Below, piece by piece: positions 2,311 through 27,063 of a stretch of DNA of 28,142 nt. The position numbers and the translations under genes are program-made. Position 1 is the first letter of the stretch. Every line of letters starts with the position of its first letter. Below the pieces are notes generated by a model. That model did not search any database and had not been told where the DNA came from. It saw only the letters and a list, made by a program, of their open reading frames with translations. The DNA is from a virus. The stretch is from the IMG/VR virus record IMGVR_UViG_3300010885_070806, positions 1 through 28,142 of that record; one strand, given 5' to 3'.

Positions 2311-2316
2311 TGTTTG

Positions 2317-3330
2317 ATGAAAAAAATTAGTTGGTTTAGTCTTAACAATCAAGATGCATCTGGTGAATTTTGGTTCAGCCAAGGTTATCAACACGCTGCT
2401 TTAGAGACTATTCAAGCATTGAAGAAAAAAGAATGTGGTGTGTTTTATAACCGAGAAGATATTCCTTTTCATGTAAACTTCTGTCCTCCTCCTTACTATC
2501 AGAATAAATCAAAGTATACGGTTGGTTACACTCCTTGGGAGTCAACTAAAATTCCAGAACATTGGGTTTACAGTATGCAAAAATGCGATGAGATTTGGTC
2601 TACTTCAGAATTTATCAGCGACATATATCGGAAACAAAACGCAAATGCAAATATATATACAATACCTCATGGCGTGTCAGAAAATTTTTCTATATACGAT
2701 AGACAATTAACAGGAAGATTTGTTTTCTTGCATGTAGGTGGAGATAGTAAAAGAAAAAATGCTCAAATGGTTGTAGATGCATTTTTAGACTTATATGATG
2801 ACGATGATGATTATAGACTTGTTTTAAAATATAATAAATTTTGTACTGCGGAATGTTATGTTGATAACAAATTAGTTCCGGCTATTTATCATCCTCAAAT
2901 TATTGGTATTGGTGATAATTATACAGTAGATGAGTTAGTTGAGTTGTATCACAAATGTCATTGTATGGTTTATCCAACAATGGGAGAAGGTTTTGGCATG
3001 ATCCCTTTTGAATCAATTGCAACAGGTATGCCTACAATTCTTACTGATGCAACTGGTTGTAAAGATTTTTCTCATTATGGAATTCCTTTGTCGGCAAGTT
3101 TTGTAAAAGCAGACTGGCAAGATAATCTTTATGCAGCTGATACCGGTAACTGGGCGAGTCCTGATTTTGATGAACTATTGCACTTGATGTCTAGTGTTGT
3201 AAACGAATATGAGATTTACAAAAAGTTTTCTTTAAAATCAGCAAAAATTTTACACTCTGAGTTTTCATGGGCTATGACTGCTGATAAGATATTAAAGCGT
3301 TTAGAATTTTATGAAAATTCTTTGCTGTAA
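2317..3330 (+). CDS. glycosyltransferase, GT-B fold, GT4-like
   Basis: This 337-residue protein resembles GT1/GT4 family glycosyltransferases, which move a sugar from a nucleotide-sugar donor. The N-terminal half has the acceptor-side features of short phage and bacterial enzymes (YTVGYTPWESTKIPEHWV, then CDEIWSTSEFISDIY). A hinge-like YTIPHGV leads to the donor domain (FVFLHVGGDSKRKNAQMVVDAF). The signature GEGFGMIPFES carries the E-x7-E pair at residues 224 and 232, which normally contacts the donor. A TTG lies directly before the ATG at 2317; I prefer the ATG. The acceptor is unknown: candidates are phage DNA, virion proteins and host surface glycans. The gene is followed by a 69-base gap with a promoter, so it may be transcribed with the upstream small gene. 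Confidence 0.85.
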   Translation: MKKISWFSLNNQDASGEFWFSQGYQHAALETIQALKKKECGVFYNREDIPFHVNFCPPPYYQNKSKYTVGYTPWESTKIPEHWVYSMQKCDEIWSTSEFISDIYRKQNANANIYTIPHGVSENFSIYDRQLTGRFVFLHVGGDSKRKNAQMVVDAFLDLYDDDDDYRLVLKYNKFCTAECYVDNKLVPAIYHPQIIGIGDNYTVDELVELYHKCHCMVYPTMGEGFGMIPFESIATGMPTILTDATGCKDFSHYGIPLSASFVKADWQDNLYAADTGNWASPDFDELLHLMSSVVNEYEIYKKFSLKSAKILHSEFSWAMTADKILKRLEFYENSLL

Positions 3331-3346
3331 TCCTTAGTAATATTCA

Positions 3347-3394
3347 TTGACTTTAACTTTTTACATAGTAAACTAGTTATTCATTTCGCGGAGG
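3347..3394 (+). promoter_or_regulatory. promoter and ribosome-binding site for ribonucleotide reductase
   Basis: TTGACT (3347-3352) and TAAACT (3369-3374) are 16 bases apart, a good sigma-70-type pair. A strong GGAGG (3390-3394) lies five bases before the TTG at 3400. The strong ribosome-binding site is the reason to accept the TTG start codon. Confidence 0.55.
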
Positions 3395-3399
3395 CCAAA

Positions 3400-5328
3400 T
3401 TGTCGTTATTAACTTATGATTTTATAAATTCCTATTCCCAAAAACAAGTTCCTTGGGGTTTTGGAGGGCTAGGAGAAGTTGTTTATCTAAGAACATATAG
3501 CAGAAAAATTGATGGCACAGATAGGACAGAAACATGGGTGGAAACCATTAAAAGAATTATTGATGGTGCTGTAGAAATCGGCGTTCCGTTTACACAACAA
3601 GAAGCAGAATCTTTGTTTGATCACATGTTTAATTTAAAATGTAGCGTGTCTGGTCGTGCGTTGTGGCAATTAGGAACACCTTTGGTTTCTAAATTATCAG
3701 GCACATCTCTTAATAATTGTTTTTTTACTAATATTGAAAAAATTGAAGACTTTGAATTATTGTTTGATTATCTGATGCTTGGTGGAGGAGTTGGTTTTTC
3801 TGTAGAGCGTTCTAAGATTCATGATCTGCCAAAAGTAAAACAAGTGGAGAAGATTATTGCTGAAAGAACCAATGATGCTGATTTCATTATCCCAGATTCA
3901 AGGCAAGGCTGGAGAGAGTTGTTGTCAAAAGTTCTTGAGTCTTATTTTGTAACAGGAAAATCTTTTACATACTCAACAATTCTTATTAGAGAATTTGGTG
4001 CACCATTAAAAACTTTTGGTGGCACAGCATCTGGTCCAGGGGCTTTAGTAGATGGTATTGCTGATATTTGTAAAGTGCTTAACAACAGAGTAGGTAAAAA
4101 ACTTCGTTCAATAGATGTCCTTGATATTTGTAACATCATTGGAAGAATTGTTGTATCTGGTTCATCTCGCCGTTCGGCGCAGATTGCAATTGGAGACCCT
4201 GATGATGTTTTGTTTTTGAGAGCAAAAAACTGGGGTTCAGGAGACATTCCTGCTTGGCGATCAAACAGTAACAATTCAATTTATGCAGATGCATACAGTG
4301 AAATTATGCCTGAATTATGGCGAGGCTATGATGGTACAGGTGAACCGTATGGCTTACTTAATAGAAAACTAGCAAGAACTTATGGTCGTGTTGGAGAAAA
4401 AAATCCAGACCCAACAATTGAAGGGTTTAACCCATGTGCAGAAATTGCTCTTGGAGATGGAGAGTCTTGTAATCTTTCAACTATCTTTTTGCCAAACATT
4501 GATTCATTGTCTCAATTTAAAGAAATTAGCAAATTACTTTATATGATTCAAAAACAAATTTCTAAGTTATCTTATCCATATGAAAAAACAAATACTATTG
4601 TTCATAAAAATTCAAGACTCGGGCAATCCGTAACTGGGATTCTGCAATGCGATGAAGAAAAAATTGGATGGCTAGACGAAGTTTATAAATATATTAAAAA
4701 CTTTGATAAAGAATATTCAGCTAAAAATGGCTGGGGTCCTTCTGTAAGACTTACAACGGTGCAGCCATCAGGAACGCTTTCTTTACTCCCAGGCGTTACT
4801 CCTGGAATACATCCAGCATTTGCTCCATATTACATCAGAAGAGTTCGTTTTAATTCTGTTGACCCTCTTGTTGATGTTTGTCGCAAACGAGGTTATAAAA
4901 TTGTTTGGGATAAAGGGTTAGATGGTCGTGAAGATCACACCAAATATGTTGTTGAATTCCCATGCAAGTCCCCAGAAAACTCTGTGCTTGCAAAAAACAT
5001 GACGGCTGTTGATCAGCTTGAGTGGGTTAAAAAACTTCAAACTATTTGGGCTGATAATGCTGTTTCTGTAACTGTCTATTATCGTAAAGAAGAGCTTGAA
5101 TCCATTAAAGAATGGTTATCCAAGAATTATGATAAATCAATTAAGTCAGTATCTTTCTTGCTTCATGTTGATCATAACTTTGTATTGCCTCCATATGAAG
5201 AAATTTCTGAAAACGAATATAATTCGGCAGTTTCAAAGCTTGATTTATCAATTCCGGCAGTTGTTGTTCACGAAACAGAGCTGTTATCTCTTGATGATTG
5301 CGCTACAGGGGCTTGCCCAATCCGTTAA
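3400..5328 (+). CDS. nrdJ: adenosylcobalamin-dependent (class II) ribonucleoside-triphosphate reductase
   Basis: This enzyme makes deoxyribonucleotides for phage replication using a B12-generated radical. The 642-residue protein matches the monomeric class II type (Lactobacillus leichmannii RTPR). Key residues visible are NNCFFTNI with C107, one of the active-site redox pair; NPCAEI with N344, C346 (thiyl radical) and E348; and ESCNLS with C357, the redox partner. The spacing of 11 between C346 and C357 equals that of C408/C419 in the reference enzyme. The C-terminal CATGACPIR supplies the swinging pair C634 and C639, with the same spacing of five as C731/C736. The protein is about 100 residues shorter than the bacterial enzyme, as is usual for viral forms. 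It starts at TTG behind a strong GGAGG. No oxygen or second subunit is needed, so it works alone in the host cytoplasm. Confidence 0.95.
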   Translation: MSLLTYDFINSYSQKQVPWGFGGLGEVVYLRTYSRKIDGTDRTETWVETIKRIIDGAVEIGVPFTQQEAESLFDHMFNLKCSVSGRALWQLGTPLVSKLSGTSLNNCFFTNIEKIEDFELLFDYLMLGGGVGFSVERSKIHDLPKVKQVEKIIAERTNDADFIIPDSRQGWRELLSKVLESYFVTGKSFTYSTILIREFGAPLKTFGGTASGPGALVDGIADICKVLNNRVGKKLRSIDVLDICNIIGRIVVSGSSRRSAQIAIGDPDDVLFLRAKNWGSGDIPAWRSNSNNSIYADAYSEIMPELWRGYDGTGEPYGLLNRKLARTYGRVGEKNPDPTIEGFNPCAEIALGDGESCNLSTIFLPNIDSLSQFKEISKLLYMIQKQISKLSYPYEKTNTIVHKNSRLGQSVTGILQCDEEKIGWLDEVYKYIKNFDKEYSAKNGWGPSVRLTTVQPSGTLSLLPGVTPGIHPAFAPYYIRRVRFNSVDPLVDVCRKRGYKIVWDKGLDGREDHTKYVVEFPCKSPENSVLAKNMTAVDQLEWVKKLQTIWADNAVSVTVYYRKEELESIKEWLSKNYDKSIKSVSFLLHVDHNFVLPPYEEISENEYNSAVSKLDLSIPAVVVHETELLSLDDCATGACPIR

Positions 5329-12467: not shown

Positions 12468-12821
12468 ATGGCAGCACCAAATATAGTAAACGTAGCAACA
12501 ATCACAGGTAAAACAGCAGTTCTTGCTGTAACGACTTCTGCAACAGCAATCGTTACAAACAGTGCCGCGTCAGGAAAAGTTTTTAAAGTTAATGCTCTTT
12601 ATGTATCAAATGTTGACGGAGTAAATGCGGCTGATATAAGTGTTGATCTATTTCGTTCTTCTGTTGCTTATCGTATTGCTTTTACAGTTTCGGTCCCCGC
12701 AGATGCAGTATTGGATGTTATTTCTAAATCCATTTATTTAGAGGAGGGCGATACTCTCCGCTTAACAGCAAGCGCAAACTCCGATTTGGAGGCTGTCTGT
12801 AGCTACGAAGAGATTAGCTAA
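12468..12821 (+). CDS. small beta-sandwich structural protein (copy 2)
   Basis: This 117-residue protein, MAAPNIVNVATITGKTAVLAV onward, contains KVNALYVSNVDGVNAADISVDLFR, a VPADAVLDV turn and YLEEGDTLRLTASANSDLEAVCSYEEIS. It follows the plan of the other small proteins in the fibre region. GGAGG lies eight bases before the ATG, and its stop overlaps the next start (TAATG), tying it to the glycine-rich adhesin that follows. The pairing of a small beta protein with a glycine-rich tip is repeated at 16583-17915 and 22054-23220. Confidence 0.8.
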   Translation: MAAPNIVNVATITGKTAVLAVTTSATAIVTNSAASGKVFKVNALYVSNVDGVNAADISVDLFRSSVAYRIAFTVSVPADAVLDVISKSIYLEEGDTLRLTASANSDLEAVCSYEEIS

Positions 12822-13624
12822 TGCGTTCTAACGGTGGGGTTATCGGGGGGAAGAAGACGGTAACTGGTTCTGCTGCGTCTGGTATTTGGGCTATGCGTGA
12901 CCAACAAAGAGAAAAAGGTGCAAGCAACTGGCCAAGCATTCCTTTTAATGCAACAGTAACTTTGTTGGGCGGCGGTGGAGGCGGTGGTACTGGTAATGCA
13001 CAATGGGCTGGCGGCGGTAGTGGCGGAGGCTATTTAGTTGCAGATTTTTTAGTAGCAGAATCTGTTAATTATTCAACAACTGTCGGTGCTGCTGGAGCAG
13101 GGCAAACTGCCTGTAACAACTCAGACCATAGAACTGTTGGAAAAGGAGGGGACTCTATTTTTTCTTCATCTTCTGCTGGTGGCGGGCAAGGTGGTAACTC
13201 ACTGAGTGTTGGAGCGAGTGGAATCGGTGGGACAAATGTTACTACTGGGTCAGTAAGCGTTACTACGAATTATGTTGGACAAACTGCAGCATATACAGGT
13301 GGCGACTACAACAATGCAGGTGGAAATAATGGTTTAAGAAATGGTAATGGAACAACAACTTACGGAGCAGGAGCATCTGGAGGTCCGAATAGCCAAGCAG
13401 GAGCGTCTGCTTCAGGAAAAGGCAACGGTGGTGCTGGTGGTCCATCATGTCAGACCCCCACTGCTGGAGGAGGTAATGGCTCTATAGGTGTAGTTATTTT
13501 GACATATCCAGATTCAAAGACGATTACTATCGGTGCAGGTTTAACAGGTACGACAGCGGCTCCATCTGGGGGTTTTAAAACAACCACAATCACCGCTGGT
13601 ACAGGAAATGTGAGTTGGGCATAA
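12821..13624 (+). CDS. glycine-rich tail fibre adhesin, copy 1
   Basis: This 267-residue protein has many Gly runs (GGGGGGGTGNAQWAGGG, GGGQGGNSL) interleaved with short beta segments. The ending VVILTYPDSKTITIGAGL...GGFKTTTITAGTGNVSWA is shared with the other two glycine-rich proteins. Such sequences form stacked polyglycine-II helices in phage adhesins (for example S16 gp38), whose loops bind the host receptor. The N-terminal 50 residues are basic and not glycine-rich and may attach it to the fibre. Its start overlaps the previous stop. Its stop is followed by ATGGC in the same TAATGGC junction found at copy 3. Confidence 0.85.
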   Translation: MRSNGGVIGGKKTVTGSAASGIWAMRDQQREKGASNWPSIPFNATVTLLGGGGGGGTGNAQWAGGGSGGGYLVADFLVAESVNYSTTVGAAGAGQTACNNSDHRTVGKGGDSIFSSSSAGGGQGGNSLSVGASGIGGTNVTTGSVSVTTNYVGQTAAYTGGDYNNAGGNNGLRNGNGTTTYGAGASGGPNSQAGASASGKGNGGAGGPSCQTPTAGGGNGSIGVVILTYPDSKTITIGAGLTGTTAAPSGGFKTTTITAGTGNVSWA

Positions 13625-13683
13625 TGGCTACTGAATCAAATCTCATCAATAAACAATGTAAAATATATAAAGGAGAAATATAA
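13624..13683 (+). pseudogene. 19-codon orphan reading frame at a module junction
   Basis: An ATG coupled to the adhesin stop (TAATGGC) opens MATESNLINKQCKIYKGEI and then stops. The equivalent start at 23220 leads directly into a full MAHYAFLD protein. Here that protein instead begins three bases after this frame ends, with its own ribosome-binding site inside it. The frame may be a relic of a former gene start or a coupling peptide; translation is doubtful. Confidence 0.35.
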
Positions 13684-13685
13684 AC

Positions 13686-14057
13686 ATGGCACATTATGCA
13701 TTTCTAGATCCCGAAAATATTGTTACCGAAGTTATCGTTGGTAAAAACGAGGGTGAAGACGGTATTGATTGGGAGCAATGGTATGGGGAGTTTCGTGGTC
13801 AAACATGCAAACGCACCTCGTACAACACTCATGGTGGTCAACACAGCGATGGCGGTACACCATATCGTAAAAACTATGCGGGCATTGGCTTTAAGTATGA
13901 CGCGACACTAGACGCTTTCTACGCCCCACAACCATATCCATCGTGGATTCTTGATGAAGATACCTGTGTTTGGGAAGCACCTGTTGCTTACCCATCAGGG
14001 GAGGGTGCTTACTCTTGGAATGAAGAGAACCAAAATTGGGATAAAATTGAAATCTAA
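13686..14057 (+). CDS. MAHYAFLD-type fibre-associated protein, copy 1
   Basis: This 123-residue protein begins MAHYAFLDPENIVTEVIVGKNEGED and contains TCKRTSYNTHGGQH, RKNYAGIGFKYDATLDAFYAPQPYPSWILDEDTCVWEAPV. The pattern is widespread next to tail fibre genes in marine phages, but I know of no assigned function. A role as fibre assembly factor or fibre component is inferred from context. The second copy at 23220 shares the opening, the TCKRTS segment and the FxAPQPxPS segment. GGAGAA precedes the ATG. The stop overlaps the tailspike start (TAATGG). Confidence 0.8.
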   Translation: MAHYAFLDPENIVTEVIVGKNEGEDGIDWEQWYGEFRGQTCKRTSYNTHGGQHSDGGTPYRKNYAGIGFKYDATLDAFYAPQPYPSWILDEDTCVWEAPVAYPSGEGAYSWNEENQNWDKIEI

Positions 14058-16958: not shown

Positions 16959-17915
16959 ATGACAGCATTTGGTCTTCGTAGCAGAGTAAACACAAATATT
17001 GGCACTTGGCTGAATAATGGTTTTGGTGGTTTGGGTACGACATTATTTCCTACACCAACAGTTGATTACCTTGTTCTTGCTGGCGGTGGTGCTGGTAGTA
17101 ATAATACTTACGGTGGCGGTGGCGGTGGTGCTGGCGGTTTGCGTAGCACGGTTACTGCAACCGGTGGTGGTGGAACTTTAGAGTCTGTTCTTAGCATTTC
17201 TGGTGGAGTTGCGTATACAGTCACAGTTGGCGGTGGAGGAACATCATCTTCAACTAACGGTGCTGTTGGTGGTAGTGGAAGTAACTCTGTTCTAGGTTCA
17301 ATCACATCAACAGGTGGCGGTGGTGGTGCTGGTGGCGGTAGTGCTGGTGTTGGTGGTGGTTCAGGTGGTGGCGGTGTAGGCGAAGGTACATTTGGTGGCG
17401 GAACTCGCACGGCTTCACCTGTTCAAGGGTTTAATGGCGGTTCCAGTGGGGGTCGTGGTTGTGGTGGTGGAGGTGGTGCTGGCGCTATTGGTGGCAATGT
17501 TAGTGGCGCTACTTGCGGTGCTGGTGGTGCAGGTTCATCTTCAAGTATTACTGGTTCTTCTGTCCAAAGAGGCGGTGGCGGTGGTGGAGGATTTAGACCT
17601 GGTGACTCGCAAAACACTCCAGGCGCTGGTGGTGCTGGTGGTGGTGGAGGTGGCGGTGCTGGAGTTCCTTCATCGGGTACAGCAGGTACACCAAATCTTG
17701 GCGGTGGAGGTGGTGGTAAGACAAACACTGATCCTGGTTTCAGCACAGGCACTATAGGTGGTAACGGTGGTAGCGGTATAGTCATTTTGCGTTATGCAGA
17801 TACATTCCCCAACATAGTTTCTATCGGTGCTGGGCTTACTTACACCGGTCCAGTAACTTCAGGCGGGTATAAAGTTTATTCATTTACAGCCGGAACAGGA
17901 GATATAACTTTCTAA
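16959..17915 (+). CDS. glycine-rich tail fibre adhesin, copy 2
   Basis: This 318-residue protein has the longest glycine tracts of the window. After a short N-terminal part (MTAFGLRSRVNTNIGTWLNN) comes VDYLVLAGGGAGSNN, then many GGGGGAGG blocks separated by short strands such as YTVTVGGGG. SSSSITGSSVQRGGGGGGGF is shared with copy 3 (SSSITGSSVARGGGGGGGGF). The conserved end is IVILRYAD...VSIGAGL...GGYKVYSFTAGTGDITF. A polyglycine-II lattice displaying receptor-binding loops is the expected structure. Proline-rich frames on the opposite strand are by-products of the glycine codons. Confidence 0.87.
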   Translation: MTAFGLRSRVNTNIGTWLNNGFGGLGTTLFPTPTVDYLVLAGGGAGSNNTYGGGGGGAGGLRSTVTATGGGGTLESVLSISGGVAYTVTVGGGGTSSSTNGAVGGSGSNSVLGSITSTGGGGGAGGGSAGVGGGSGGGGVGEGTFGGGTRTASPVQGFNGGSSGGRGCGGGGGAGAIGGNVSGATCGAGGAGSSSSITGSSVQRGGGGGGGFRPGDSQNTPGAGGAGGGGGGGAGVPSSGTAGTPNLGGGGGGKTNTDPGFSTGTIGGNGGSGIVILRYADTFPNIVSIGAGLTYTGPVTSGGYKVYSFTAGTGDITF

Positions 17916-22428: not shown

Positions 22429-23220
22429 ATGTCGCGTATTAAACGGAACACTACTGGCGGTAAAGCTGTTGGAGGGGGCGCTCTTGCCCCTAACACTAAA
22501 CGTACTAATAGTACATTTCAAGTTGATGCCTATTCTCGCGGCGGGGGGTCAACTCCAGTCTCTGTTCAGTACTTGATAATTGGCGGCGGCGCGGCTGGCG
22601 GTGGCGGTGATAGCCCTCACGGAAACGGCGGTGGCGGTGGAGGTGCTGGCGGTCACTCAACAGGTACTTATACTGAACTTGAAAAGGGAACGAATTTTGC
22701 AGTGATAGTTGGTGGTACTAGTTCTTTAAGCCGATTTACGGGTCCTACAACAGTTACCGCTAATGCTGGCACCGCAGGTAATGGTGGAGGCCCAGGGTAT
22801 TCTGGTTCAGGCGGTGCGTCAGGTGCTGGATACGGCGGTGGTGGTGGCACTCAGTATTCTGGTGGAGGTGGCGGTGGCACTGGTGGTAATGGTGCTTCTG
22901 GGCACTCAGGTGAATACGGTGCTAGCGGCGGTGGTGCTGCAAGCAGTTCAATTACTGGTAGTTCCGTAGCGCGAGGCGGAGGAGGAGGCGGTGGTGGCTT
23001 TTATGGAAGCGGTGGCGCAGGTGGTAGCGGACCTGGTACTGGTAGTAGTTCTTCACGAAACGGGAACATAGGAGGCGCTCAGGGTGGTGCAATCTTTTTA
23101 AGATTTGCTAATGATTCCGTAATTACGGTAGGTGCTGGACTTACTTCTTCTTCTGCTGCCGATGGTTCTTTCACCGTTGTTACGATTAACGCTGGTAGCG
23201 GCAATGTAAGTTGGGCATAA
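22429..23220 (+). CDS. glycine-rich tail fibre adhesin, copy 3
   Basis: This 263-residue protein starts MSRIKRNTTGGKAVGGGALAPNT; a basic N-terminal segment is followed by VQYLIIGGGAAGGGGD and dense Gly tracts. SSSITGSSVARGGGGGGGGF is shared with copy 2, and the end AIFLRFANDSVITVGAGL...TVVTINAGSGNVSWA is shared with copies 1 and 2. The C-terminal GNVSWA and the following TAATGGC match copy 1 at DNA level apart from wobble changes. The predicted role is receptor binding through loops of a polyglycine-II lattice. The ATG has no Shine-Dalgarno sequence and lies three bases after the previous stop. Confidence 0.86.
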   Translation: MSRIKRNTTGGKAVGGGALAPNTKRTNSTFQVDAYSRGGGSTPVSVQYLIIGGGAAGGGGDSPHGNGGGGGGAGGHSTGTYTELEKGTNFAVIVGGTSSLSRFTGPTTVTANAGTAGNGGGPGYSGSGGASGAGYGGGGGTQYSGGGGGGTGGNGASGHSGEYGASGGGAASSSITGSSVARGGGGGGGGFYGSGGAGGSGPGTGSSSSRNGNIGGAQGGAIFLRFANDSVITVGAGLTSSSAADGSFTVVTINAGSGNVSWA

Positions 23221-23627
23221 TGGCACATTACGCATTTTTGGATTCAAACAATATTGTTGTTTCAACGATTAAAGGAGTTGATGAAACAGAAACGCAGATT
23301 GATAACGGCGTTGAGGTTGGCGGTTCAACAGAAGCGTGGGAAGCGTTTTACGCAGCACAACCCTGGAATGCAGGCATGACTTGTAAGCGCACTTCAATCA
23401 CTAACAGTTTTCGCAAGCAATACGCAATTCCTGGTTTTACCTATGACCCTGTGAACGATGTTTTTATTGCACCACAACCTCATCCGTCTAAGGTTCTTAA
23501 TGAAAACTTTGATTGGGTACCACCAACGCCAATGCCAACAGAGGATATAAGTCCTCAAAATTGGTATTGGGACCCAGACACAGAGATATGGCGAGGCGTT
23601 ACCCCTATCGTTATACCCGAGCAATAG
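23220..23627 (+). CDS. MAHYAFLD-type fibre-associated protein, copy 2
   Basis: I start at the ATG at 23220, which overlaps the adhesin stop in TAATGG, not at the in-frame TTG nine bases upstream. The 135-residue protein reads MAHYAFLDSNNIVVSTIKGVDE, then TCKRTSITNSFRKQYAIPGFTYDPVNDVFIAPQPHPSKVL. It aligns with copy 1 at the opening, the TCKRTS segment and the F-I/Y-APQP segment. It is longer in the middle (EVGGSTEAWEAFYAAQPWNAGM). It closes the fibre region. Being coupled to the adhesin suggests that it assists or caps it, but that is inference. Confidence 0.8.
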   Translation: MAHYAFLDSNNIVVSTIKGVDETETQIDNGVEVGGSTEAWEAFYAAQPWNAGMTCKRTSITNSFRKQYAIPGFTYDPVNDVFIAPQPHPSKVLNENFDWVPPTPMPTEDISPQNWYWDPDTEIWRGVTPIVIPEQ

Positions 23628-23654: not shown

Positions 23655-24263
23655 GTGAAAATAACAATTCCTAATAAAAAAGCACCAGTGATTTTGGTAA
23701 GTGATTTGTATAGTCAGTCAGAACTTGAACAAATGTTTTTTGAAATAAACTCTCTTTGTAGTCATCAACTTGATCCTGAACAAACAGGTGGTAGTAAGGT
23801 TAATAACATATTGCAAAAAAATACAAAAGGATTGTTTTTAGATACACATTATAAAGAGAACAGACACCTCTCTAAGTGTTTAAAATTCAATCGTAAAATC
23901 TTTATTGAAGAAAACATGATTGCTTTTGAAAAAGCGATGCCTTGTTTTTCTTTATTAGCTACTAGTAGTAAAGATACAACTTTACTAACCTGGTATGGCG
24001 ATAAAACCTTTTACAAACCCCATCGTGATACTTGTAGCGTAACTTGTTTAACATATTTTATTCCCGAACAGGATTCTTTTTCAGGGGGTTTGTTAGTTTT
24101 TGATGATTTTGATTTAAAAATAAAACCTGAAAACGGGCTAATTGTATTGATGTTAGGAAGTTTGAAACATAGCGTTACTGTAGTGAATACTTTAATTAAA
24201 GATAAAAAAACACCAAGGATCGTTATGTCACAATTTATTTGTCACGAGGACCGTGCTTCATGA
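23655..24263 (+). CDS. 2OG-Fe(II) oxygenase 1
   Basis: This 202-residue protein has the 2-oxoglutarate/iron dioxygenase core. H123 and D125 in KPHRDTC, H172 in SLKHSVT and R188 in TPRIVM are the expected two-His-one-carboxylate iron site and the 2-oxoglutarate-binding Arg. The strand-turn SGGLLVFDDFDLKIKPENGLIVL is typical of the prolyl-hydroxylase-like branch. It starts with GTG directly behind a TATACT box. The stop overlaps the next start (ATGA). The enzyme would hydroxylate a protein or small-molecule substrate that cannot be read from sequence; the neighbouring halogenase and oxygenases suggest a shared substrate. Confidence 0.85.
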   Translation: MKITIPNKKAPVILVSDLYSQSELEQMFFEINSLCSHQLDPEQTGGSKVNNILQKNTKGLFLDTHYKENRHLSKCLKFNRKIFIEENMIAFEKAMPCFSLLATSSKDTTLLTWYGDKTFYKPHRDTCSVTCLTYFIPEQDSFSGGLLVFDDFDLKIKPENGLIVLMLGSLKHSVTVVNTLIKDKKTPRIVMSQFICHEDRAS

Positions 24264-24844
24264 CAAATAATAACGGTGATGGCTCGTTGTTTATTCAAAC
24301 AACTTACATTGATGAAAATATTTGTAAAGATTTAATAGAATATTTTGAGAAACACCCCAACCAAGAACCAGGAAAGATATACACTTCAGACATTTTAACT
24401 GTTAATACAAATGTTAAAAACTCTACTGATGTCCATATTACTTCTTTAGATTGTTATGATTCAGCAATAAATAATTATTTAATAGAGCTACAAAACTCAT
24501 TGAATGATTATATTTCAAAGTTTCCTGTATTACAAAAACACAATCAATACACTATTGGAAACGGTTTCAACATACAGCGATATTACCCAAATGAAGCTTA
24601 TTTTCAATGGCATTGTGAAAGAAACAGTTTTCAATCCTCACCAAGATTGTTAGTATTTACAACGTATTTAAATACCGTAAACGATGGTGGAGAAACGGAA
24701 TTTATGTATCAAAATCTAAAAATAAAACCAGAAACTGGGTTGACAGTGATATTTCCAGCAGATTGGATGTACTATCATAGAGGTATCCCCTCAAACACAG
24801 AAACAAAATGGATAGTAACTGGATGGTTTTCTTATGTTAAATAA
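24260..24844 (+). CDS. prolyl 4-hydroxylase-like 2OG-Fe(II) oxygenase 2
   Basis: I start at the ATG at 24260, which overlaps the previous stop and has GAGGA nine bases upstream, giving 194 residues. The core is YPNEAYFQWHCERN with H118 and E120, then LLVFTTYLNTVNDGGETEF, KIKPETGLTVIFPADWMYYHRG with H173, and K183 as the likely 2-oxoglutarate ligand, as in prolyl hydroxylases. The iron-binding motif reads H-x-E instead of the more usual H-x-D. Sequences of this type are common in T4-like cyanophages. The stop overlaps the halogenase start by 11 bases, so expression is coupled. The likely substrate class is protein, by family. Confidence 0.88.
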   Translation: MTNNNGDGSLFIQTTYIDENICKDLIEYFEKHPNQEPGKIYTSDILTVNTNVKNSTDVHITSLDCYDSAINNYLIELQNSLNDYISKFPVLQKHNQYTIGNGFNIQRYYPNEAYFQWHCERNSFQSSPRLLVFTTYLNTVNDGGETEFMYQNLKIKPETGLTVIFPADWMYYHRGIPSNTETKWIVTGWFSYVK

Positions 24845-26426
24845 AATAGTCATAGTAGGCGGAGGCTCTGCTGGTTGGATGACAGCAGCAACACTCATTA
24901 AATCTTTTCCAGATAAAGAAATTTTATTAATTGAATCACCAAACTTTGAAACAATCGGAGTTGGGGAATCAACCGTTGGTTTATTAAGACCATGGATAAA
25001 TTATTTAGATTTAGATGAATCTTCTTTAATTAGAGCAACTGATGCATCTTTAAAATTAAGTATCAAATTTAATAATTTTTATAAAAAAGATTCTGAAGGC
25101 TTTCATTATCCACTTGGTGTTCCATACACAACATTTGGAGAAAACCCATTTGATATTTGGCATAAGAAAAAATATTTTTATCCAGATACTCCGCTTTCTG
25201 ATTTCGTAGATTGCTTGTTCCCAGCAGCAGCGTTATTTGAAGAAAATAAATATTCAGAAAATATTGATGGTCAATTTGATAATTTTAATCCAGAAAGGGA
25301 TGTTGCATACCATTTTGATGCTATAAAGTTTGCTCAATGGCTTAAGAATGATTACTGCCTTCCAAGGGGGGTCACACTAATCCCAAAAACTGTAAAACAC
25401 ATACCAACAAATCATAAGGGTGTTGAAAAGTTAATATTTACAGACGATACAGAAATTACAGCAGATTTATTTATTGATTGCACTGGTTTTAAAAGCATGT
25501 TACTAGAGCAAACTCTAAAAGAACCTTTTGAATCATACGAAGACTTGTTACCAAACAACAGTGCTTGGGCATGCCAAGTTCCATATAAAGATAAAGACCT
25601 AGAAATGCGCCCATACACAGATTGCACCGCGATAGATAATGGTTGGGTTTGGAACACTCCGCTGTACTCAAGAATGGGAACTGGATATGTTTATTCAGAC
25701 AAATTTGTTACTTCGGAACAAGCCCAAGAAGAATTAAAACAACATATTAAGAACAATCTGGTTGTTAAACGAACTGATGAGGAAATAGAAAGCTTTAAGT
25801 TTAAGCATTTAAAATTTAAGATTGGAACGCATGCAAGGATATTTGTTAAGAATGTTGTAGCAATTGGGTTGTCTGCTAGTTTTAATGAGCCAATAGAAGG
25901 CAATGGGTTGTATAGCGTTCATGAATATTTAACACGCTTAATTGCTATTTTAAAACGAAATGATATATCTCAATTTGATAGAGACATGTATAACGTTGCA
26001 TGTCGTAATTTGTTTGATGGTTTTACTGAGTTCATTATCCTGCACTACGCCTTATCTCACAGAGATGATACCCCTTATTGGGAGAGTATTAAGAATAAAC
26101 ATTTTATTGACCGTAATGGAGATCCGTACACTCAGACTCATAAACGTGTTCAAAATTTATATTATTTAGGAAACAATTTTATGAATGAATGGTATCACCC
26201 ATATATAAATGGAGGAGGAGTGTATCTATCTACAGGTATGAACTTATTAATGTGGGACGATTTTAGAATTAGCTCATCAGCGTTAGTATGGGAATATGAC
26301 CCTCTTGAAAACATTAGCGGTGTGGTTAAAACTTATGAGATTAGAAAAGATAAATGGCGAGAAGCGGCTAAAAAAGAATTAACTTTATATCAATACCTTA
26401 AACAAACATATTACAACAAGGAGTAA
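24834..26426 (+). CDS. flavin-dependent tryptophan-halogenase-like enzyme
   Basis: This 530-residue protein matches the tryptophan halogenase family, which uses reduced FAD, oxygen and halide to halogenate aromatic substrates. VIVGGGSAGWMTAATL (FAD-binding GxGxxG, residues 7-20), GVGESTVG (42-49), KLSIKF with K74 and K78, one of which would match the catalytic Lys near residue 79 of PrnA and RebH, and GWVWNTP (270-276, the GWxWxIP-like signature with Thr in place of Ile) are all present. Its length is normal. No flavin reductase is encoded nearby, so the host must supply reduced flavin. A cyanophage relative, VirX1, iodinates many substrates in vitro. The substrate here is unknown; the two oxygenases upstream and one downstream suggest a multi-step tailoring pathway. 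Confidence 0.9.
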   Translation: MLNKIVIVGGGSAGWMTAATLIKSFPDKEILLIESPNFETIGVGESTVGLLRPWINYLDLDESSLIRATDASLKLSIKFNNFYKKDSEGFHYPLGVPYTTFGENPFDIWHKKKYFYPDTPLSDFVDCLFPAAALFEENKYSENIDGQFDNFNPERDVAYHFDAIKFAQWLKNDYCLPRGVTLIPKTVKHIPTNHKGVEKLIFTDDTEITADLFIDCTGFKSMLLEQTLKEPFESYEDLLPNNSAWACQVPYKDKDLEMRPYTDCTAIDNGWVWNTPLYSRMGTGYVYSDKFVTSEQAQEELKQHIKNNLVVKRTDEEIESFKFKHLKFKIGTHARIFVKNVVAIGLSASFNEPIEGNGLYSVHEYLTRLIAILKRNDISQFDRDMYNVACRNLFDGFTEFIILHYALSHRDDTPYWESIKNKHFIDRNGDPYTQTHKRVQNLYYLGNNFMNEWYHPYINGGGVYLSTGMNLLMWDDFRISSSALVWEYDPLENISGVVKTYEIRKDKWREAAKKELTLYQYLKQTYYNKE

Positions 26427-26429
26427 TAA

Positions 26430-27038
26430 ATGATTGTCTATGTAGAGCATTTTTTTTCATACCCTGTAGTCATAATTGATATGGGGGATAAATTAAAAAA
26501 CTTATTTAAACAGCAAAAAATAAGTGCGGAATGGACTGAAAACATTCATGAGCATTGTCATAAAAATTATCAATCAAAATCTCTTGATATATTAAAAGAC
26601 TACCCGGATGAACACGACTTTTTGCTTGATTGTGCTGAAAAATACAAAAACGAAATTTTCAAATGGGACTCTGTAAATTTAAAGATAACTACATCCTGGA
26701 TGACTAAAACAGAACAAAATGGTTTTTCAAAACCCCACTCTCATAAAAATTCATTAATCAGTGGAGTTGCATACGATGACTTGGACGGTCAAGGTCATTT
26801 AGTTTTTCATAACCCCAAGCCTCTACCAATCTTGCCCTGTAGTCCAAGTTCTTTTACACACGAAAATTGCACTGATTATTCAATTGTGCCCGCACCAAAT
26901 CGTTTAGTATTATTTGAAAGCAGTTTAGAACATCATATTGGAAAACACCCAAAAGAAGATACTCGTTTTTCTTTGGCTTTTAATACTTTTCCGACTGGGC
27001 AGGTTGGCGATTTTGATTCTTCTATAAAAATACTATGA
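26430..27038 (+). CDS. 2OG-Fe(II) oxygenase 3 (TIGR02466-like)
   Basis: This 202-residue protein follows the halogenase with AAGGAG seven bases before the ATG. Its pattern is that of the putative 2OG-Fe(II) oxygenase family common in T4-like phages: SWMTKTEQNGFSKPHSHKNS (H103 and H105), SGVAYDDLDGQGHLVFHNP, RLVLFESSLEHHIGKHP (H168 or H169) and DTRFSLAFNTFP with R179. An acidic iron ligand is not obvious next to the HxH, which is usual for this family. It is the last gene of the cassette and is followed by a hairpin. The substrate is unknown; membership in the cassette suggests it acts with the halogenase. Confidence 0.82.
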   Translation: MIVYVEHFFSYPVVIIDMGDKLKNLFKQQKISAEWTENIHEHCHKNYQSKSLDILKDYPDEHDFLLDCAEKYKNEIFKWDSVNLKITTSWMTKTEQNGFSKPHSHKNSLISGVAYDDLDGQGHLVFHNPKPLPILPCSPSSFTHENCTDYSIVPAPNRLVLFESSLEHHIGKHPKEDTRFSLAFNTFPTGQVGDFDSSIKIL

Positions 27039-27044
27039 GACATA

Positions 27045-27063
27045 GGTAGCTGATATTGCTACC
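27045..27063 (+). terminator. weak hairpin at the end of the cassette
   Basis: GGTAGC and GCTACC pair around a seven-base loop (TGATATT) seven bases after the oxygenase stop codon. The downstream sequence is AT-rich (ATTTATCTAAAAAA) but not a clean U tract, so termination would be partial. Confidence 0.4.

Follow-up and report, generated by a model that had tools for sequence, protein, structure and literature searches.

A VirX1-like halogenase and three oxygenases form a candidate tailoring cassette behind fibre genes in an actinophage-like virus

We analysed the IMG/VR virus record IMGVR_UViG_3300010885_070806 over its whole length of 28,142 bases (hereafter the window) and found a flavin-dependent halogenase encoded together with three 2-oxoglutarate (2OG)-Fe(II) oxygenases, here named oxyA, oxyB and oxyC, at positions 23655-27038. 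An initial annotation of the sequence had described a four-enzyme cassette lying directly after fibre genes; its open reading frames (ORFs), coordinates and families were confirmed with Pfam and PHROGs, and a glycine-rich ORF and a small phrog_7759 ORF immediately precede it. We read the locus as a late, modular and swappable oxidative tailoring cassette that most likely modifies virion fibres, a statement that as a whole we hold at slightly less than even confidence; our confidence in the identities of the enzymes is far higher. Late expression and the fibre as shared substrate are what we infer from relatives and gene placement. With no scaffold-making enzyme present, the cassette would amount to a group of tailoring enzymes and fall short of a complete pathway. 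The features of the region are as follows.

22429-23220, plus strand: glycine-rich fibre- or adhesin-like ORF, 263 aa, 33% Gly, assigned by composition; homologue in the related stretch L166 at 629-1522; candidate substrate or neighbour.
23220-23627, plus strand: small phrog_7759 ORF containing Trp and Tyr, 135 aa from its ATG, perhaps fibre-associated; homologues adjoin glycine-rich ORFs in L037, L040 and L166.
23655-24263, plus strand: oxyA, 2OG-Fe(II) oxygenase, 202 aa, GTG start; PF13640 (E 8e-7, above cut-off), phrog_61, H123xD125...H172.
24260-24844, plus strand: oxyB, prolyl-4-hydroxylase-type 2OG-Fe(II) oxygenase; PF13640 (E 1.6e-12), phrog_61, HxE (24611-24619)...H (24776-24778).
24834-26426, plus strand: VirX1-like flavin-dependent halogenase, 530 aa; PF04820 (E 5.7e-100), phrog_2928 'tryptophan halogenase', VirX1 6qgm (E 1.6e-95).
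26430-27038, plus strand: oxyC, 2OG-FeII_Oxy_5/TIGR02466-type oxygenase, 202 aa; PF13759 (E 4.9e-15), phrog_81, HxH...H.
27045-27063, plus strand: terminator-like hairpin directly after oxyC, a possible end of the transcription unit.

The halogenase scored 335.8 bits against the PF04820 profile (curated cut-off 21), and VirX1 was its best match in the PDB, with approximately 39% identity over 83% of the protein. Its flavin adenine dinucleotide (FAD) motif GxGxxG reads GGGSAGW, K74 lies in LKLSIKF and E355 in NEPIEGNG. Loss of the FAD motif or the catalytic Lys had been named as a refuting result, and both were present in an alignment with 94 homologues, in which the catalytic Lys is retained in 93 and the Glu in 90. 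Gly-Asn replaces Ser-Thr after the catalytic Glu in the window (G in 4 and N in 48 of the 94), and WxWxIP reads WVWNTP, with both Trp and the Pro retained and Ile replaced by Thr (T in 7/94). The ratio of nonsynonymous to synonymous substitution rates (omega) was 0.07 against the 90% identical halogenase of the relative L002, indicating strong purifying selection; with K74 and E355 intact, a decayed halogenase was rejected. In a tree built by a quick method, with Shimodaira–Hasegawa-like approximate likelihood ratio test support only, the window halogenase fell within a VirX1-like clade of 77 rows (76 viral and one metagenome-assembled genome [MAG]; support 100), apart from bacterial halogenases. 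The closest homologue in genome collections (L173, a 'Deltaproteobacteria' MAG, 47%) lies inside this viral clade, and its contig may itself be viral.

The nearest solved relatives of oxyB were prolyl 4-hydroxylases (P4Hs; E 1.5e-7), and its metal triad, HCE...H, was read from the sequence and these P4H matches. Fold prediction was applied to oxyA because a sequence search gave no significant solved relative. Its AlphaFold2 model (predicted local distance difference test [pLDDT] score 88) matched the putative oxygenase 3dkq, P4H, PHD2 and LH3 in Foldseek, the matches including many protein prolyl hydroxylases; the alignment gives its HxD...H triad as HRD...H, and the predicted model supports a double-stranded beta-helix fold. 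All core catalytic residues had been reported as present in the four enzymes, which holds for the catalytic Lys and Glu of the halogenase and for the triads of oxyA and oxyB. By contrast, oxyC departs from the two-His-one-carboxylate pattern, with HxH...H (H103-x-H105...H168) in place of HxD/E...H. Since the HxH is invariant in 13 of 13 aligned sequences, we attribute it to the subfamily as a whole rather than to decay. The nearest solved proteins to oxyC by sequence were the uncharacterised structures 2rg4 and 3bvc, and its AlphaFold2 model (pLDDT 84) matched the same two as solved 2OG oxygenases. Its family membership (PF13759/TIGR02466) comes from profile and predicted fold, the TIGR02466 score being under its cut-off. 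Omega for oxyC was 0.14 against L002 and 0.14–0.22 overall, consistent with purifying selection.

The genes are tightly packed. The oxyB ATG at 24260 lies over the oxyA stop, giving an overlap of 4 nt (the ORF scan also gives a TTG start at 24239), oxyB and the halogenase overlap by 11 nt, and oxyC, preceded by an AAGGAG box, starts closely after the halogenase stop. The cassette had also been credited with its own leaderless-type promoter. A TATACT box does stand 4 nt ahead of the oxyA GTG, and strong boxes of this kind occur at 18% of window gene starts vs 3% of other ATG/GTG codons; the signal is weak, and a sigma-70 scan of the region listed no site before oxyA. Read-through is as likely as an own promoter because the preceding gene stops 27 nt upstream. 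The hairpin after oxyC is only suggestive as a unit end, since the region has five such sites where 3.7 were expected.

In flavin-dependent halogenases, FADH2, O2 and halide yield hypohalous acid, which is guided by an active-site Lys (PMC8407142). The window halogenase would produce hypohalous acid with reduced FAD, O2 and halide supplied by the host, and Lys74 would direct it onto an electron-rich aromatic ring. A host flavin reductase would be needed, as the cassette has no such gene. The P4H-like oxygenases would hydroxylate side chains using 2-oxoglutarate, O2 and Fe(II). Members of the prolyl-hydroxylase superfamily often act on protein side chains. The shared substrate would most likely be a newly made virion fibre or adhesin, whose stability or receptor specificity would be altered.

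Among named phages, those of Streptomyces have the portal and major capsid proteins nearest to the ones encoded in the window (43–50% identity), so the host of the window phage is probably an actinobacterium; a cyanophage origin was unsupported. A capsid-protein search of viral contigs yielded 221 related stretches, of which the best 80 were kept, and by this definition the phage belongs to a large aquatic group akin to actinobacterial viruses. At 2314-5328 of the window, a glycosyltransferase gene (2314-3330) and a ribonucleotide reductase gene lie just ahead of the portal region, and ORFs of almost identical lengths occupy that place in many group contigs.

Close relatives carry different versions of the cassette. 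L002 has the end of an oxyB-like gene, two inserted tandem 2OG-like ORFs (69% identical in DNA) and then the halogenase; the halogenase-oxyC order is conserved with the window, and its oxyC is 71% identical by residue. L166 has the glycine-rich ORF, the phrog_7759 ORF and oxyC, together with another oxyC-like gene and a sulfotransferase; no halogenase was detected in it. The sulfotransferase (PF13469, 1513-2286) lies between its glycine-rich ORF and small phrog_7759 ORF. An assembly artefact is unlikely, given that the oxyB end and halogenase-oxyC pair are common to L002 and the fibre-side context to L166. A fixed four-gene operon was rejected because composition differs between relatives. Genes annotated as endonuclease V in the phage records P-SSM2, S-WAM1, Sf-FR1 and Sf-FP1 matched PF13640, and phrog_274, 'DNA endonuclease V', resembles a 2OG oxygenase family (match to a 161-aa ORF of L002 41-1018, E 8.5e-41, with HxD...H...R); judged from these sequences, the name is a probable misannotation.

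PF04820 matched in 6 of the 23 records tested (the capsid-defined group plus L166). In L109, L093, L106 and L131, the halogenase follows the fibre region and is accompanied by 2OG genes; L118 and L091 have 2OG genes at the fibre-region slot, with no halogenase detected. The window halogenase sits in a 19-row clade with L109 near but outside it, that of L093 groups with HTVC008M, and those of L106 and L131 group with P-SSM2. We read this as one fibre-adjacent slot that has probably received halogenases repeatedly, since those of the group sit on different branches of the tree. Halogenase-bearing members of the group have unusual fibre-region ORFs, rich in Tyr, Trp and Cys (YSCPSGG repeats) or in His (L093 14986-15897, L106 8252-9178, L109 15014-15925 and L131 14898-16496, the last with 6.6% His). 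The window has two pairs of a glycine-rich ORF with a small phrog_7759-type ORF (12821-14057, its small ORF at 13686-14057, and 22429-23627), and a third glycine-rich ORF lies at 16959-17915.

The association was then surveyed across phages with a 2OG detector based on an iterated search seeded with the window genes and two relatives; Pfam scans independently confirmed many loci. At least one 2OG gene lay within four genes of the halogenase in 39 of 60 non-redundant loci, and two or more in 28, so halogenases without oxygenases, which the initial annotation had named as a refuting result, were not the rule. The 2OG share of genes was 27% at a distance of one to two genes from the halogenase vs 13–14% at distances of 5–12. 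Across 12 phage genomes, the 2OG genes within 10 kb of a halogenase numbered 42 of 153, vs 20 expected under rotation (p ~0.001, counting related genomes as independent). The enrichment stems from eight fibre-linked VirX1-like genomes (33/91 vs 13 expected), the other four showing none (9/62 vs 7 expected), a split that was made after the neighbourhoods were seen. Glycine-rich ORFs lay within four genes in 25 of the 60 loci, with 32 upstream and 10 downstream of halogenases. A family of approximately 250 aa, a possible further partner, occurs at 20 of the 60 loci and frequently adjoins the halogenase (members include L093 17078-17872, L072 9571-10359 and L118 10558-11259; the possible L118 member matches PF19541 [DUF6065]).

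In Syn10, the phage of VirX1, glycine-rich ORFs are followed by a small gene and two halogenases, after which seven 2OG genes lie within 10 kb. S-RIM44, S-WAM1, S-CREM1, Sf-FR1, Sf-FP1 and P-RSM6 resemble Syn10 in that genes that are glycine-rich or named as tail fibres come first, followed by a small gene, a single halogenase or a pair, and finally 2OG genes. An [AC]TAAATA motif, which we take to be the T4-type late promoter, stands 29–34 nt ahead of the small gene directly preceding the halogenase in Syn10, S-RIM44, S-CREM1, Sf-FR1 and Sf-FP1, where its density predicts 0.003 per such position, the position having been chosen after looking. Glycine-rich fibre tips have been described in other phages, where glycine-rich distal domains bind the receptor (PMC9608196). 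Our literature search found no paper on 2OG enzymes modifying phage fibres.

Related, shuffled sets thus adjoin fibre genes in several unrelated phages, which suggests that phages may chemically decorate their own receptor-binding fibres. The virion fibre is favoured as the substrate because of the missing scaffold-building genes, the fibre-adjacent slot, the late-promoter motifs in relatives and the fast turnover of the enzymes. It is possible, if rather doubtful, that phages halogenate and hydroxylate their own receptor-binding fibres post-translationally in late assembly, drawing on exchangeable cassettes of halogenase, P4H-like oxygenases and sulfotransferase housed in the slot beside the fibre genes; in that case, VirX1 would naturally act on a fibre protein rather than on a free metabolite.

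Several observations weigh against the fibre-tailoring interpretation. No 2OG gene was detected near the halogenase in 21 of the 60 loci, and the rotation test is open to the relatedness of its genomes. By our reading of the ORFs, the halogenases of L004-L007 and L012-L019 lie by sliding-clamp/clamp-loader-like genes and those of L042-L048 by SbcCD-like genes, and that of S-B64 lies within an annotated replication region. Some halogenases in such replication or recombination neighbourhoods still have 2OG genes, so the halogenase-oxygenase link is not always fibre-related. The motif evidence comes from five cyanomyoviruses and not from the window phage, at a position picked post hoc. The glycine-rich ORF just before the cassette is not enriched in Tyr, Trp or His; glycine-rich ORFs near halogenases are higher in these residues than others (His 2.6% vs 0.55%), a difference confounded by phage lineage. 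Fibre composition was therefore rejected as a clue to the substrate. The coupled pathway that had been proposed survives as a halogenase-2OG association beyond chance in several unrelated phages, often by fibre genes; a fixed four-gene pathway does not, given the replication-linked halogenases, the loci without a detected neighbouring oxygenase, and oxygenases that vary in number and type between close relatives.

In L037 and L040, the halogenase has a carbamoyltransferase neighbour, and in L024 a PhyH-like gene is among the neighbours; both also count against fibres, being suited to sugar/glycan or small-molecule chemistry. We consider it somewhat unlikely that the window cassette serves to decorate a surface polysaccharide or that its product is a small molecule, halogenated and hydroxylated, shielding the infected cell from rivals. 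Iyer and colleagues proposed a surface-polysaccharide or metabolite role for S-SSM6a-type cyanophage clusters of halogenase, 2OG oxygenases and carbamoyltransferases (PMC7824862); a carbamoyltransferase lies a few kb from the halogenase in S-MbCM6, VirX1 acts on many small aromatics in vitro (PMC8407142), and the window has a glycosyltransferase. That gene, however, lies approximately 20 kb from the cassette, beside ribonucleotide reductase, genes for a carbamoyltransferase, a methyltransferase, a ligase or export are missing from the cassette, and the late-promoter motifs in fibre-linked relatives would be late for a change of the host surface.

The fibre-adjacent region could instead be an insertion hotspot in which halogenase and oxygenases are independent cargo with separate jobs (e.g. 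host metabolism or 2-oxoglutarate signalling) and no common substrate. The rapid shifts in composition between close relatives fit this, as do the abundance of 2OG genes (6–21 per genome in the 12 phage genomes), their tie to host nitrogen state in cyanophages (PMC3037559), and L009, whose halogenase has no detected 2OG neighbours. We nevertheless judge it distinctly unlikely in view of the overlapping genes, the halogenase-oxyC order kept in L002, a 2OG enrichment exceeding the local background, the strong purifying selection, and the recurrence of different halogenases with oxygenases in one slot. Very improbable is a former halogenase now acting as a flavin hydroxylase or maturase on protein Trp, like the distant relatives LodB, GoxB and QhpG: weak NCBIfam matches (LodB, E 5e-10; QhpG, E 9e-10) and the Gly-Asn and WVWNTP variants point that way, but the VirX1 and tryptophan-halogenase matches are far stronger, the catalytic Lys, Glu and both Trp are retained, and the variants are seen in other clade members.

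To our knowledge, no natural substrate of any viral halogenase, VirX1 included, is known. Earlier work had already described viral halogenases, 2OG genes in cyanophages and clusters combining the two; what is new, as far as the literature searched goes, is that the carrier is actinophage-like, that unrelated halogenases fill a recurring slot beside fibre genes, and that there is a link to a late-promoter motif. The recurrent fibre-adjacent, late-promoter-linked placement offers a concrete hypothesis for the substrate of viral halogenases, testable on existing isolates. If fibre tailoring is true, halogenation and multiple hydroxylation would join the means by which a phage changes its receptor binding. 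Tailoring of this kind could then also account for some of the large 2OG oxygenase arrays kept by aquatic phages, which are generally catalogued as auxiliary metabolic genes.

Among known systems, VirX1 of cyanophage Syn10 belongs to the same sequence clade as the window halogenase and retains the same K and E, and both phages have 2OG genes adjoining the halogenase and fibre genes upstream. The two differ in that they share only ~39% identity over 83%, the window has G-N and not S-T after the catalytic Glu, and Syn10 is a cyanomyovirus whereas the window phage is actinophage-like. The S-SSM6a cluster (PMC7824862) likewise groups a halogenase with several 2OG oxygenases in a phage, but the window cassette has no carbamoyltransferase, HemK methylase or haloacid dehalogenase (HAD) phosphatase (no carbamoyltransferase or methylase was found among the window neighbours scanned by ORFs, Pfam and PHROGs), lies behind fibre genes and belongs to a different phage type. 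Within the P4H superfamily (bacterial P4H, PBCV-1 vCPH 5c5t, PHD2), oxyB is alike by sequence and oxyA and oxyC by predicted fold; identity to the Foldseek matches is ~10–25%, oxyC has HxH and not HxD, and no collagen-like substrate was identified in the window. The gene order of Synechococcus phage Sf-CH11 (structural, glycine-rich, 2OG, 2OG, halogenase, 2OG, 'ferrochelatase' [scored as 2OG here], LamG) is nearly the same behind structural/fibre genes, with a halogenase 45.6% identical to that of the window. Unlike the window phage, Sf-CH11 is a T4-like cyanomyovirus with the extra 2OG-like gene annotated as ferrochelatase and a second fibre-like gene.

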